Under the pieces are notes generated by a model. That model saw only the letters and a program-made list of their open reading frames with translations, was not told the origin of the DNA and ran no database searches. From Chitinophagaceae bacterium (GTDB lineage Bacteria; Bacteroidota; Bacteroidia; Chitinophagales; Chitinophagaceae): DNA of 64,000 nucleotides. The position numbers were made by a program, and so were the translations under genes. Where the stretch lies: the NCBI GenBank assembly GCA_947446645.1, contig CANFHA010000010.1, positions 124,001-188,000 of the forward strand, read 5' to 3'. Every line of letters starts with the position of its first letter. Positions within the stretch are counted from its first letter, which is position 1. Positions 30,293-42,605 of the stretch are shown in pieces.

Positions 30293-31909
30293 ATGGATGA
30301 AGTCTTTGACTTTTTCAGAAAGCTGCTTAGTACCGCCGACTTTCCACCACGGTGGCACTGCGGCCGCTGGTCCGACTTTCATGGCTGGCTATACCTGCTA
30401 AGTGATCTTGCTATCTGGGGTGCCTATTTTACACTGCCTGTTATCATCGTCAGCTACATCGCTAAAAAGCAGGATGTGCGCTTCTCGAAGATCTACTTCC
30501 TGTTTGCTGCATTCATAGTTGCCTGTGGTTCCACACACTTTTTAGATGCGCTTGCGTTCTGGTATCCGTTTTACAGGCTTAGTGCGCTGGTGAGGTTTGC
30601 TACCGCTATCATAAGCTGGGTAACGGTCTTCAGCCTTATAAAGATGTTGCCTGCTGCATTCTCACTAAAGACTGCTGAGCAGTTTGAGGCAGAGATAGAG
30701 CAGCGCAGGAAAGCGGAGGATCAGCTGCGCATCAATAACCAGCTGCTCAACGAGGCCCAGGACATAGCCAAACTGGGCCACTGGCAATGGGACGTACCTG
30801 CTAATAAAGTTACATGGTCACAGGGAGCGATTAAGGTCTTTGGGCGTGCTGCGGGCAGCCCGCAGATCACTTACGATGATTACCTGCTGGCCATACATCC
30901 CGAGGACAGGCAGTACGTGAGTGATGCCATCAGCGATGCTATCAGTAAGCAGGTGTTTCCTACTTTTTACCACCGCATACTGCTGCCAAATGGCCAAACC
31001 CGCCTGGTGCTGTCAAAGGGGGAAGTGATAGTGGGGAACAATGGCCAGACGGAACAGATGATAGGCACGGTGCAGGATGTTACCGACCAGAAGAACTTTG
31101 AGCAGGAGCTCCTGATAAAGTCTCAACGGCTGGAAGCCTCAAACGAGGAGCTTCAGAAGTTCGCCTCCATCGCCTCTCACGACCTTCGCGAACCCCTGCG
31201 TAAGATCCTCACCTTCGGCTCTATGCTGGAGAAAGAGTATACCGATGTGCTGGGCGACAAGGGCATTACCTTCCTGCATAAGATGACCATGGCATCGCTG
31301 CGCATGCAGAAGCTCATTGATGATATACTCGACTTCTCCAAGCTCACCGTGAATGTTGCCACCTTTGAGAAAGTGAACCTGAATGAGCTGGTAACACAGG
31401 TGCTCTCTGATATGGAGGTAGCTATAGATAGCAGCGGTGCAGAGATCACCGTAGGCACACTGCCGGAGATAGATGCCAACGCCAGCCAGCTGGGCCAGCT
31501 GTTTCAGAACCTGCTGGGCAATGCCATAAAGTTCAGGAGGGAAGGGGAGCGCCCGCACATACCGGTGAAGGGCGATATCATAACCGTAGCGCAGCTGCCG
31601 GCCGACTTCTTTAAGAGCATACAGTTCGAGACCTCCGTGTTCGATGGGGCCGAGTATCGCATGAATGAACGCTTTTGCCAGCTCACCATTGAAGACGACG
31701 GCATAGGCTTCGATGCCACATTCCTCGATAAGATATTCCTCATATTCCAGCGCCTGCATAGCCGTGCGGAGTACGAGGGCACGGGCATAGGCCTGGCTGT
31801 AGTGAAGAAGGTAGTAGACCTCCACAACGGCTACATCACCGCCAGCAGCAAACCCGGTGCAGGAGCCACTTTCATCATTATTCTACCTATTAATCAGCAG
31901 GCGAACTAA
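30293..31909 (+). CDS. Sensor histidine kinase with N-terminal ethylene-receptor-like domain
   Basis: 538 residues. Residues 33-120 form three hydrophobic helices that align with the ethylene-binding domain of plant ETR1: Asp38, Tyr45, Cys78 and His82 correspond to Asp25, Tyr32, Cys65 and His69, with identical spacing. Cys78 and His82 would bind Cu(I). The motifs 'SDLAIWGAYFTLP' and 'ACGSTHFLDAL' support this. ETR1 Lys91 appears as Arg101. A PAS domain (about 150-270), HisKA with His296 in 'ASHDLREPLRK', and a HATPase domain (about 400-535, 'EYEGTGIGLAV') follow. No receiver gene is adjacent, so the partner is unknown. Confidence 0.87.
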   Translation: MDEVFDFFRKLLSTADFPPRWHCGRWSDFHGWLYLLSDLAIWGAYFTLPVIIVSYIAKKQDVRFSKIYFLFAAFIVACGSTHFLDALAFWYPFYRLSALVRFATAIISWVTVFSLIKMLPAAFSLKTAEQFEAEIEQRRKAEDQLRINNQLLNEAQDIAKLGHWQWDVPANKVTWSQGAIKVFGRAAGSPQITYDDYLLAIHPEDRQYVSDAISDAISKQVFPTFYHRILLPNGQTRLVLSKGEVIVGNNGQTEQMIGTVQDVTDQKNFEQELLIKSQRLEASNEELQKFASIASHDLREPLRKILTFGSMLEKEYTDVLGDKGITFLHKMTMASLRMQKLIDDILDFSKLTVNVATFEKVNLNELVTQVLSDMEVAIDSSGAEITVGTLPEIDANASQLGQLFQNLLGNAIKFRREGERPHIPVKGDIITVAQLPADFFKSIQFETSVFDGAEYRMNERFCQLTIEDDGIGFDATFLDKIFLIFQRLHSRAEYEGTGIGLAVVKKVVDLHNGYITASSKPGAGATFIIILPINQQAN

Positions 31910-35612: not shown

Positions 35613-36080
35613 TCATTCATCTTCTGGCAATTTAAAAATATAACGGTCGTCATACGCTACATCAAATTTTTCCAGCATCTTTTTATATTCATCAAGAAAC
35701 GTAATTTTTTTGTGATGCTCCTGTTGGTTGAATATGTACTTAGCCACGGTATCTATCTGCGACCTAGAATAGCTGAATGCGCCATACCCTTCTTGCCATT
35801 GAAACTTGCGCTGTGTCAGTTTTTCGTTATTTATCCATTCAGATGAGTCGCCCTTTATTACCCGCATCATTTCTGAGATTGACTGGTTAGGGTTTAATCC
35901 GACAAAAAGGTGAAGATGGTCGGACATGTTATTGATGGCAATCATTTTATGGCCATTTGTTTTGGCAATAGTAGAAATATAGGTTCTTAAGCGTTCATCC
36001 CAACCGGAATGCAACATCGCGGCCCTGAATTTCGGTGCAAAAACACACTGTATATAAAGTTGGGTATATGCATTAGCCAT
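35613..36080 (-). CDS. IS200/RAYT-like Y1 transposase
   Basis: 155 residues, about the size of IS200 TnpA. The HUH metal motif is 'HLHLFVGL', and 'VAKYIFNQQEHH' near residues 110-121 carries the likely catalytic tyrosine and following Gln. 'QWQEGYGAFSYSRSQID' is the usual family block. Such enzymes cut single-stranded DNA at hairpins. The gene lies inside ~70-bp inverted repeats with GCCCC palindromes, so it is more likely a RAYT that acts on REP sequences than a free insertion sequence. The frame is intact. Confidence 0.9.
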   Translation of the reverse strand: MANAYTQLYIQCVFAPKFRAAMLHSGWDERLRTYISTIAKTNGHKMIAINNMSDHLHLFVGLNPNQSISEMMRVIKGDSSEWINNEKLTQRKFQWQEGYGAFSYSRSQIDTVAKYIFNQQEHHKKITFLDEYKKMLEKFDVAYDDRYIFKLPEDE

Positions 36081-38920: not shown

Positions 38921-41900
38921 GTGGAAGAAGCTATTTACGACTATGAAGACCACCCTGTGGCCGACAAAAAGGAAGGTAAACTTGTGTTCCGGTACTTTCC
39001 CGGCTATGCTGCTTTTATTCGGGATAATTGCCTGGTGCCCTACATAGCTGAGCAGCTGCGCATATGCAGGCAGATAGAGCTGCCGATGATGAAATTCCTG
39101 GAGGGGATGACAGACGACCAGCTGATAACTATGGGCCTGGAGTCTCACAAAATGTTTCTTACCAGTGCTGAAGAAAATACACTGGCCGAACACCTGGAGA
39201 AATCGCTAAAGGCCTGGGTAGAAGACCAACTGCTAATAATGAAGCGGGAAGACCTGACGGCTGAGGATATTTCTTATGCCGGCTTTGTGCGTAAAAAGGC
39301 GCTGATGAAATTTCTGCCTTCCTATACTACAGACCTTTATGAGGCCATAGAAATAATAAACGAGATAGACAGGCTGGGGGTGTATAATGACATTGCCTCC
39401 ACCAATGTATACATAAAGCTGCTGCAGGACCGTATAAAGGAGCAGGTGTTTCTTACCGAGGCACTATCAAACACTACACCGGGTATCAACTTTATTTTTG
39501 GGCTGGGCGACAGATCGCTGGTATATGCAAATGGTAATGCCGAGCGGTTCTTTGGTAATACGCTGGAGGATATGAAGGTGATGAAAGCAGACTTCCTGAC
39601 GGATAAGCTTCACCATGAGGATGTGGCAGAGACCATAGCGGCGTTTGACAAATGCGCGGCCGCAAAGAATGGCGAGGTGGTGACCTGGGAGATGCGCCTG
39701 AAAGCAGGAGCAGGCCACTATGTGTGGATGCGCAACTACTCATCGGTATATAAAAGAAATGACGATGGTACGGTATCGCAGATAGTGGGTATAATACTGG
39801 ATATAGATAAGGAAAGGGAAGTATCGGAGCAACTGCTGAAGAACGAACGGCAACTGCTGGACGCGCAGGAACAGGCAGAGGTGGGCAGCTTTGAGCTGGA
39901 TGTTGCAACGGGCAAAATGGAGGTAACACCACAATTCAAAAAGATATACGAGGTTACTGATTTTGACCTGTATACGCTAATAGATAATGTGCACCCCGAA
40001 GACCGGGAGCGTGTGAATGCCAACCGGGACAAGGCAATACGGGAAAATGGCATTTACGACAATGAATACCGCTACAGGGTGAATGGCAAAGAAAAGGTGA
40101 TATGGTCTCGCGGGCGGATAGCAGACCGAAACGGGACGAAGATAATGGTGGGAACTGTTATGGATATAACCGCGCGCCACCAGATGCTGCAGCAGCTGAG
40201 AGAAAGCGACGAACGCTTTAAGCAGGCGCAGGCACGCACACACATAGGCAACTGGACGTGGGATATAGTAAATGACAAGGTTAGCTGGTCTGATGAAATG
40301 TTCAGGATATACGGGCTTGAACCTCAATCGCAGGAGGTGAACTATGATACGTATATATCGCACATTCACCCCGATGACCAGGAGACACGTAAAGCGCAGG
40401 TGCAGCGTGTATTTGAGACCGGGGAGCCGGAAGATCACCACTATCGCATAGTAGCGCCTGATGGCTCTGTACGTATACTGCACACCAAGAGTGAAATAGA
40501 ATTTGACAAGGAGGGGAAGCCACTGCGTATGATGGGTACCTGCCAGGATATAACCGAGAAGCAAACACTGATAGACAGGCTGCAGCGGAGCGAAGTGCTT
40601 TACAAGCAGGCGCAGGCCATAAGCCACATAGGCAACTGGTCGTGGAATGTGGAGACGAAGGAAATGGAGTGGTCGGATGAGCTGTACCGGATCTATGAGC
40701 TGGAACCAAACTCAGCAGGTACGAGTGATACGATAGCCCTCTACAATCACCCGCAGGATGAAGAGCTTATTCGCAACACTATAAGGAACGCACGAAGTAC
40801 ACTGCAGCCGTTTGATATTAATTTCCGCATCATTCTTAATGATCACCGGATAAAAACACTGAATCTAAAAGGTGAGGTAGCGGCAGATGCGGATGGCAAA
40901 GCAGTAAAAATATATGGCACCGTTCAGGACATAACCGAGCAGAAGCTGGTAGAAAAAAAGCTGAAGGATTCGCAGGACTTCATCAGGAAGATAACGGATG
41001 TGACGCCATCGGTGATTGCTGCGTATGATGTGACTACCGGCCAGTTTTCTTTTATAAATGATGCTATAGAAAAACAGCTGGGTTATGAGTCATCGCGTGT
41101 ATTCGCCGAGGGTGTTCCTTTCTTTATTTCGATAACCCACCCGGATGACCTGCCGGGACTGATGGAGAAGAATGCTAAAGCGCTGGAAGAGGCAAACCAG
41201 CTAGTGGCACCAGATAATGAGCCGATAGCAGAGTTTAAGTACCGCATGAAGAATGTGGCAGGTGAGTACAGGTGGTTCCATACGTTTGGTACTATTTTCG
41301 AGCGCGATGAGCACAACCAGGTGAAGAGCGTGCTGAATATCTCAATTGATGTGACTGACCAGGAACTGGCCGAGCAGGGCTTGTTTCAGAAGAACCTGGA
41401 GCTGCAGCAATCTAACACCAGCCTGGAGGAATATGCCTATGTGGCCAGTCATGACCTTAAAGAGCCGCTTAGGAAGATCGTAACCTTTAGCGACCGCATA
41501 GTATCGTTTCATTCTGATACGCTGAATGAGGACGCCAAATTGTATCTCGGGAAGGTAATAGAATCATCGAAGCGGATGCAGAAGATGATCAACGATCTGC
41601 TGTATGTATCTACTATTGCCGGCAACAAAGACTTCCAGCTTTATGATCTTAACTTTATCCTGTCTGAAGCGCTGCAGCCGCTGGACCATAAGATTGAAGA
41701 GATTAAGGCAATTGTAGATTCAGACACGCTGCCTACGGCACTGGTGGTGCCATCGCAGTTCATCCAGCTGTTTCAAAATCTTATTGGTAATGCACTGAAG
41801 TTTGTAAGGAAGGACGTGGTGCCGAAAATAACGATCACACATAGTTTTATAGGTGGTAAGGCGTTGGAGCGTCATGATCTATCAAAGGCAAAGCGGTACC

Positions 41901-42118
41901 TGAAAATAGAAGTGCAGGATAATGGCATCGGCTTTGATAACCAATATGCGAACAGGATATTTGCTATTTTTCAGCGCCTGCATGGTCGTACTGAGTATGA
42001 GGGTACGGGTATAGGATTGGCAGTTTGTAAAAAGATAGTGGAGAATCATGGCGGCGCAATATATGCAGATGGAAAGCTGAATGAAGGTGCCAGGTTTGTT
42101 ATAGTAATACCAGTTTAA
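38921..42118 (+). CDS. Soluble multi-PAS sensor histidine kinase
   Basis: 1065 residues from a GTG start, no membrane helix. The first ~150 residues are an all-helical domain not recognised. Five PAS units follow (about 165-290, 300-415, 420-545, 550-680, 685-815), several with PAC endings such as 'GTVQDITEQK'. Two adjacent PAS share 'QA(R/I)(T/S)HIGNW(T/S)W', which suggests internal duplication. HisKA has His844 in 'ASHDLKEPLRK', and HATPase (about 945-1065) has 'EVQDNGIGFD' and 'EYEGTGIGLAV'. The single-domain regulator gene 82 bp downstream on the same strand is its likely phosphate acceptor. Confidence 0.93.
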   Translation: MEEAIYDYEDHPVADKKEGKLVFRYFPGYAAFIRDNCLVPYIAEQLRICRQIELPMMKFLEGMTDDQLITMGLESHKMFLTSAEENTLAEHLEKSLKAWVEDQLLIMKREDLTAEDISYAGFVRKKALMKFLPSYTTDLYEAIEIINEIDRLGVYNDIASTNVYIKLLQDRIKEQVFLTEALSNTTPGINFIFGLGDRSLVYANGNAERFFGNTLEDMKVMKADFLTDKLHHEDVAETIAAFDKCAAAKNGEVVTWEMRLKAGAGHYVWMRNYSSVYKRNDDGTVSQIVGIILDIDKEREVSEQLLKNERQLLDAQEQAEVGSFELDVATGKMEVTPQFKKIYEVTDFDLYTLIDNVHPEDRERVNANRDKAIRENGIYDNEYRYRVNGKEKVIWSRGRIADRNGTKIMVGTVMDITARHQMLQQLRESDERFKQAQARTHIGNWTWDIVNDKVSWSDEMFRIYGLEPQSQEVNYDTYISHIHPDDQETRKAQVQRVFETGEPEDHHYRIVAPDGSVRILHTKSEIEFDKEGKPLRMMGTCQDITEKQTLIDRLQRSEVLYKQAQAISHIGNWSWNVETKEMEWSDELYRIYELEPNSAGTSDTIALYNHPQDEELIRNTIRNARSTLQPFDINFRIILNDHRIKTLNLKGEVAADADGKAVKIYGTVQDITEQKLVEKKLKDSQDFIRKITDVTPSVIAAYDVTTGQFSFINDAIEKQLGYESSRVFAEGVPFFISITHPDDLPGLMEKNAKALEEANQLVAPDNEPIAEFKYRMKNVAGEYRWFHTFGTIFERDEHNQVKSVLNISIDVTDQELAEQGLFQKNLELQQSNTSLEEYAYVASHDLKEPLRKIVTFSDRIVSFHSDTLNEDAKLYLGKVIESSKRMQKMINDLLYVSTIAGNKDFQLYDLNFILSEALQPLDHKIEEIKAIVDSDTLPTALVVPSQFIQLFQNLIGNALKFVRKDVVPKITITHSFIGGKALERHDLSKAKRYLKIEVQDNGIGFDNQYANRIFAIFQRLHGRTEYEGTGIGLAVCKKIVENHGGAIYADGKLNEGARFVIVIPV

Positions 42119-42200
42119 AAGAGATGCTTGTAAATGCGCATTCCATTTTGTATGTTTATATTGTATCTCTGATTTTTATGTTCAAATACCCCGTTAGCCT

Positions 42201-42605
42201 ATGTTAAACGCCCCCCAACACTCGATCTTTATTGTGGACGATGATGATGATGACAGAATGTCCATTAGGGATGCCTTTATGGAAAACAAGCATGTGCACA
42301 ACTATGTGTTTATGCAGAATGGTGACCAGCTGATGGGGCACTTCTCAACGACTACGCGAAAGGTGCATCCATCCCTGATACTGCTGGACCTGAATATGCC
42401 GGGCAAGGATGGCCGCGATGTGCTGAGGGAAATAAAGAAAAATGACGAGCTGCGATTGATTCCGGTTGTGGTGGTTACCACATCTTCTGCCCCCGGCGAC
42501 CGCGAAATGTCTTATAAGCTTGGCGCTAACTGTTTCATCACAAAACCCGATTCCTACCGCGAACTTATGGTGTTGACAGACGCGATCGCTAAATTGTGGT
42601 TATAG
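42201..42605 (+). CDS. Single-domain response regulator (Rcp1-like)
   Basis: 134 residues forming one receiver domain. The acidic cluster 'IVDDDDDDR' (11-19), phosphoacceptor Asp63 in 'LILLDLNMPGKDG', 'VVVTTSSAP' and the conserved lysine in 'FITKPDS' are all present. The 'HP(S)LILLDLNMPGKDG' and 'DDDxxD' pattern is like phytochrome-linked Rcp1 regulators. With no output domain, it likely passes phosphate to another kinase or binds a target. It lies 82 bp after the multi-PAS kinase and 6 bp before the UbiA gene. Confidence 0.95.
   Translation: MLNAPQHSIFIVDDDDDDRMSIRDAFMENKHVHNYVFMQNGDQLMGHFSTTTRKVHPSLILLDLNMPGKDGRDVLREIKKNDELRLIPVVVVTTSSAPGDREMSYKLGANCFITKPDSYRELMVLTDAIAKLWL

Follow-up and report, generated by a model that had tools for sequence, protein, structure and literature searches.

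A putative copper(I)-dependent sensor histidine kinase of the ethylene-receptor type in a Chitinophagaceae bacterium

The window analysed here, a stretch of 64,000 nucleotides from a Chitinophagaceae genome (contig CANFHA010000010.1), carries a histidine kinase gene whose N-terminal domain recalls that of the plant ethylene receptor ETR1, which raises the question of what the kinase senses and to which partner it passes the signal. We propose that it is a putative copper(I)-dependent sensor for ethylene or a similar small olefin that works with an unlinked receiver, and regard this as its most likely role, with a probability of roughly 0.55. The gene, its domains and the residues considered below are as follows.

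30293..31909, + strand: sensor histidine kinase of 538 aa with the layout ETR1_N-PAS-HisKA-HATPase_c (open reading frame, Pfam domains, kinase motifs)
30380..30664, + strand: ETR1_N sensor domain, residues 30-124 (Pfam PF25487, E 6.4e-30; AlphaFold2 model)
30404..30406, + strand: Asp38, at the ETR1 Asp25 position (alignment; Asp in 95 of 110 Bacteroidota domains)
30524..30526, + strand: Cys78, at the ETR1 Cys65 position, putative Cu(I) ligand (Cys in 102 of 110 Bacteroidota domains)
30536..30538, + strand: His82, at the ETR1 His69 position, putative Cu(I) ligand (His in 88 of 110 Bacteroidota domains)
30593..30595, + strand: Arg101, at the ETR1 Lys91 position, putative partner of Asp38 (alignment; acid/base co-occurrence)
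30809..31072, + strand: PAS_3 domain, residues 173-260 (Pfam)
31151..31345, + strand: HisKA domain for dimerisation and phospho-acceptance, residues 287-351 (Pfam; H-box SHDLREP)
31481..31894, + strand: HATPase_c, the ATP-binding domain, residues 397-534 (Pfam; N, G1 and G2 boxes)

The open reading frame is intact, running from an ATG start without internal stops, and the kinase motifs are complete (SHDL at 295, NLLGNAIKF at 406, DDGIGF at 468 and GTGIGL at 496). With the phospho-acceptor histidine and the ATP-binding motifs both present, the protein is a two-component sensor histidine kinase. The preliminary description had claimed an ETR1-type ethylene-binding domain, and the profile search confirms that the protein is a true ETR1_N sensor kinase: residues 30-124 match positions 2-96 of the 97 in PF25487 and score 103.7 bits, the cut-off being 27, far beyond chance. 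Its own genome (98.4% complete) contains no second ETR1_N match at E <= 0.001, and among the matches listed (25 of 78) no NCBIfam equivalog lies over its cut-off.

An AlphaFold2 model of residues 1-140, built with 13 sequences (mean pLDDT 86.9, pTM 0.71), predicts three long helices at residues 28-58, 65-87 and 94-123. Together with the ETR1_N score, this three-helix model leads us to reject an unrelated fold of the 7TMR type. Because Cys78 and His82 are four residues, or about one turn, apart on predicted helix 2, the model agrees with the earlier placement of both residues on one site and argues against their facing different ones. It also conforms to what an ethylene receptor should show, three transmembrane helices whose second carries Cys and His on the same face. 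No solved structure of an ETR1_N domain was found by sequence profile (E up to 1) or by fold at E <= 0.001 (best E 2.2), and a viral structure library gave no fold match to the sensor domain at E <= 0.001. The top row of that library, the unnamed A0A8E4UZR7 (E 0.0025, probability 1.00, query TM score 0.68, identity 22%), may be a viral relative.

In the alignment with ETR1, D38, Y45, P49, I75, C78 and H82 correspond to ETR1 D25, Y32, P36, I62, C65 and H69. The positions proposed earlier for D38, Y45, C78 and H82 and their spacing, equal to that of D25, Y32, C65 and H69, are thereby reproduced, and R101 lines up with K91, as had also been suggested. The spacing of Arg101 differs from that in ETR1 because it follows the histidine by 19 residues versus 22, the ETR1 loop before Lys91 being three residues longer. 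When the seven binding residues of ETR1, which we take to be D25, Y32, I35, P36, I62, C65 and H69, are compared, the window kinase is identical at six, and Leu48 stands in place of Ile35. Seven residues are needed for ethylene binding according to PMC11819568, and a ligand role is assigned to the conserved Cys and His of the ethylene-receptor domain in PMC13012798.

The other site residues are kept in 103 (Tyr45), 105 (Pro49) and 101 (Ile75) of the 110 Bacteroidota domains, and 75 of the 110 have all six of D/Y/P/I/C/H. At position 48, these 75 sites carry Ile in 65 cases, Met in nine and Leu in a single one, the window kinase; this rarity counts against reading the kinase as a sensor of ethylene or another olefin. 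The wide retention of Cys and His (102 and 88 of 110), the deviation at the Ile35 position and the placement of the window on a branch apart from the two placed ethylene binders, described below, would also suit a copper-status kinase built on the ETR1_N fold, whose site would bind Cu(I) and for which copper itself or the redox state would be the signal, with no gas involved. We consider such a kinase unlikely, since Asp38, Tyr45, Pro49 and Ile75, whose ETR1 counterparts presumably matter for ethylene binding, are as widely kept (95, 103, 105 and 101 of 110), and since the genes next to it, a 173-aa open reading frame that matches no Pfam family and EF-G on the opposite strand, give no pointer to copper handling. 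In the genome, no P-type ATPase scores high enough for the curated copper family (245 bits at best, where 397 are required), which counts against a copper-dependent reading of the kinase; the best P-type ATPase, of 817 aa, is under the curated copper and heavy-metal cut-offs but has a PF12156 metal-binding domain.

For ETR1, a salt bridge between a conserved aspartate and a conserved lysine has been proposed, the residues being unnumbered in the source, and replacement of the aspartate by asparagine weakens binding by approximately 100-fold (PMC13012798). We counted acids at position 38 and bases at position 101 in the 91 domains that keep both Cys and His (86 from Bacteroidota, four from bacterial plasmids and ETR1); the remaining 24 of the 115 domain rows were left out, 23 for not having both ligands and L083 for a gap at position 38. 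An acid is combined with a base in 75 domains and stands without a base in eight, while Asn or Ser occurs with a base in none and without one in eight. The Fisher p value of this association, 1.5e-7, is too small because the rows are related, the Asn/Ser forms amounting to four changes on a quick tree (three forced). Both Glu forms at position 38 keep the base. The co-occurrence fits what would be expected if positions 38 and 101 pair like the aspartate and lysine of the ETR1 salt bridge, although the pairing is not strict because eight acid forms lack the base. In the window kinase the Asp38/Arg101 pair is intact, and position 101 across the 110 Bacteroidota domains is Arg in 69, Lys in 23 and Leu in 14. 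Two large ETR1_N proteins, L018 and L020 (open frame 1567 aa), carry Asn where ETR1 has Asp25, and Asp where it has Lys91.

The copper ligands were also compared with the ATP domain across a family sample of 62 genes. These are 66 of the 72 over-cut-off family places, minus the duplicates L133, L138 and L140 (of L036, L037 and L035) and minus L179, which is truncated where its contig ends and stands outside the length classes; the other six, the window included, enter the residue counts only. Cys and His are both kept in 40 of the 42 genes with an ATP-domain motif, scored by a short motif rather than by profile, and in two of the 20 without it. The exceptions are L155 and L172, with ligands and no ATP motif, and L191 and L195, with the motif and no ligands. 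The association mainly reflects one event, because 15 of the 20 genes without both ligands form one clade on the quick tree. If the helices were an anchor and dimer module only and the PAS domain did the sensing, as the PAS_3 domain and the family members without copper ligands could suggest, ligands unneeded for anchoring would hardly have persisted in 40 of the 42 genes that have the ATP-domain motif, and we give this explanation very little weight.

The clade just mentioned consists of 15 short ETR1_N proteins, all from the family of the window's bacterium (L170, L171, L176-L178, L180, L181, L185-L190, L192 and L193), with open frames of 349-375 codons and no ATP-domain motif. The copper-ligand His is replaced in all of them, and in L188-L190 and L192 the Cys as well. 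In L170, ETR1_N is present, no HATPase_c was found, and PAS_3 and HisKA lie just under their cut-offs. The copper-less type (L170 by profile scan, L187 by eye) shares the HGWLY branch of the domain tree with the window kinase but has Tyr or Phe at the His82 position. These 15 proteins are possibly signal-blind partners.

AzoEtr1 of Azospirillum brasilense is a 525-aa protein of ETR1_N-PAS-HK layout with measured 14C-ethylene binding (PMC11819568). Our profile scan of the protein from the A. brasilense Sp7 plasmid identified ETR1_N, a PAS fold, HisKA and HATPase_c, in the same order as in the 538-aa window kinase, and the Cys/His/Asp site is common to both. The PAS fold is PAS_4 in AzoEtr1 and PAS_3 in the window kinase, identity over a whole-protein alignment is 27%, and the AzoEtr1 (L060) site reads DYIPICHK, with all seven residues and the Lys, whereas that of the window kinase reads DYLPICHR. 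Arabidopsis ETR1 likewise has a three-helix domain of the Cu(I)/ethylene type (PMC13012798), with the same key residues, and differs in its GAF, kinase and receiver domains. SynEtr1 (slr1212, Synechocystis) is, by the descriptions in PMC11819568 and PMC7700396, also a light sensor, and the regulator and small RNA that act downstream of it are known.

A tree of 51 domains (96 columns, bootstrap unsettled, midpoint root for drawing only, L083 left out) sets apart 26 HGWLY-type rows, including the window, with support 100/98. The opposite side contains Azospirillum, Novosphingobium, ETR1 and two domains from cyanobacterial plasmids; 17 other Bacteroidota rows go with this Azospirillum/ETR1 side, and L013, L014 and L084 with the window side. 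A quick tree of 108 rows, with seven left out, agrees. Since AzoEtr1 and ETR1 are outside the window's branch, both placed proteins with reported ethylene binding lie on the other one, which counts against ethylene as the ligand; for the HGWLY branch, no ligand test was found. A copper-bound sensor of a small non-olefin ligand, such as carbon monoxide, nitric oxide or acetylene, would be consistent with the separate branch and its 100/98 support, with Arg for Lys91 (R 69, K 23 of 110) and with Leu at the Ile35 position. It appears doubtful, however, as the site is that of the ethylene binder AzoEtr1 except for Leu48 and Arg101. Only tentatively do we consider that HGWLY could be a separate class of copper gas receptors found across Bacteroidota, with Asp-Arg for Asp-Lys, whose side branch without ATP domain and copper ligands would serve as signal-blind tuners of the true receptors. 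If that were true, the behaviour of a large group of bacteria living in soil and water would be steered by ethylene or another olefin.

The preliminary description had ethylene-binding-like kinases known from plants and cyanobacteria, which is too narrow: PMC11819568 and PMC7700396 include proteobacterial members, the latter naming ethylene-receptor-type proteins from proteobacteria and cyanobacteria, and the domain is frequent in Bacteroidota. At E <= 0.001, PF25487 was detected in 13 of 99 relatives, in at least 21 of 395 genomes of the phylum, in at least 21 of 395 of the class (at least 15 over the cut-off) and in at least 70 of 394 family genomes (at least 68 over the cut-off, belonging to 23 of 101 genera), the phylum, class and family counts being lower bounds because at most 12 candidates were scored per genome. 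All genome samples include the genome of the window and overlap in part. Within its genus, nine of 35 genomes, its own included, carry ETR1_N. From these counts, the gene is patchy but ordinary in the family. Named relatives are found in Flavipsychrobacter stenotrophus (63%) and Flavisolibacter longurius (50 and 49%), both labelled Chitinophagaceae. The novelty claimed earlier was overstated, in that AzoEtr1 is an ethylene binder of the same layout and at least 68 of 394 family genomes have the domain. Among titles and abstract openings outside the subscription literature, no Bacteroidota ethylene receptor was found; "Bacteroid-" is absent from the main text of PMC11819568, PMC7700396 and PMC6682694, and its sole mention in PMC10452086 concerns ACC deaminase.

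The four bacterial-plasmid ETR1_N domains come from 18 matching plasmid records. On the IMG/VR contigs L096 (3914-4330), L099, L102 and L104, ETR1_N is the sole domain over the cut-off, with no kinase; one IMG/VR ETR1_N protein is 139 aa long on a contig of 349,660 bases, and the L096 protein had no match in the INPHARED phage records.

The kinase had been described as standing alone, and neither the 173-aa reading frame nor EF-G beside it is a response regulator. The linked arrangement of AzoEtr1, whose regulator gene overlaps the kinase gene (PMC11819568) and for which a receiver-like frame is visible by eye at the gene end, is absent here. In seven of the nine same-genus carriers (the window counted), a same-strand receiver follows the kinase; only the window and L040 are without one. 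Response_reg is the only domain over cut-off in all seven receivers. Five of these form one type, 60-83% identical to the receiver of L049 (L049 counted), and two (L041 and L045) form a second type with 91% mutual identity; the two types share about 30-38% over partial alignments. For the receiver partner of AzoEtr1, too, no other recognisable output motif is reported in PMC11819568. In the family sample, a receiver comes next after 24 of 38 long genes (>= 480 codons) and after none of 27 short ones, where the 38 include the duplicates L133, L138 and L140, all without a regulator, and L164, with the receiver as second open reading frame, is scored as without.

Since most same-genus relatives and AzoEtr1 have a linked receiver and the window has none, the partner of the window kinase is, by analogy, likely to be an unlinked single-domain receiver. 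A search of the genome with the L049 receiver gave 45 receiver-like matches, all of them at 40% identity or less where the five genus receivers of this type reach 60-83%, so that a counterpart is not evident; these low identities and the lack of an adjoining regulator count against the partner part of our proposal. The top match (38%) is not named as the partner, the long frame adjoining it being kinase-like by eye only, and the receiver at 42201-42605 was rejected as it follows its own PAS kinase at 38921-42118.

We favour copper(I)-dependent sensing of ethylene or a similar olefin because the protein combines ETR1_N with kinase domains, six of the seven residues and three predicted helices, and because AzoEtr1 binds ethylene; the acid/base co-occurrence, the retention of Cys and His with the ATP motif and the receivers of the relatives point the same way. 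Under this proposal, the kinase would sit in the membrane and its three N-terminal helices would hold Cu(I) via Cys78 and His82, with Asp38 close to the copper site and paired with Arg101. Ethylene or a similarly small olefin would bind the copper and shift the site, and the PAS domain would relay the shift to the HisKA/ATPase core, presumably altering autophosphorylation and phosphate transfer in one direction or the other. The phosphate would then be accepted by a single-domain response regulator whose gene lies away from that of the kinase. If the branch binds ethylene, plant-type gas receptors would reach a major group beyond the cyanobacteria and proteobacteria of the papers cited, and the naturally occurring forms (Asp/Arg, Asn/Leu and His-to-Tyr) would offer ready tests of the residues on which affinity and signalling depend. 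A branch that binds no ethylene would instead show which other ligands the ETR1_N fold senses.

Around the kinase gene, promoter and terminator patterns occur at chance level only. In the family relatives L136, L142 and L146, a same-strand open reading frame of 718-726 aa begins 28-48 bases past the kinase; on the quick tree, L142 and L146 are joined to the window at support 82. Elsewhere in the window, the stretch 38921-42605 (+ strand) encodes a kinase that has several PAS domains and, after it, a single-domain receiver, and an IS200-like transposase (Y1_Tnp) is encoded at 35613-36080 (- strand).
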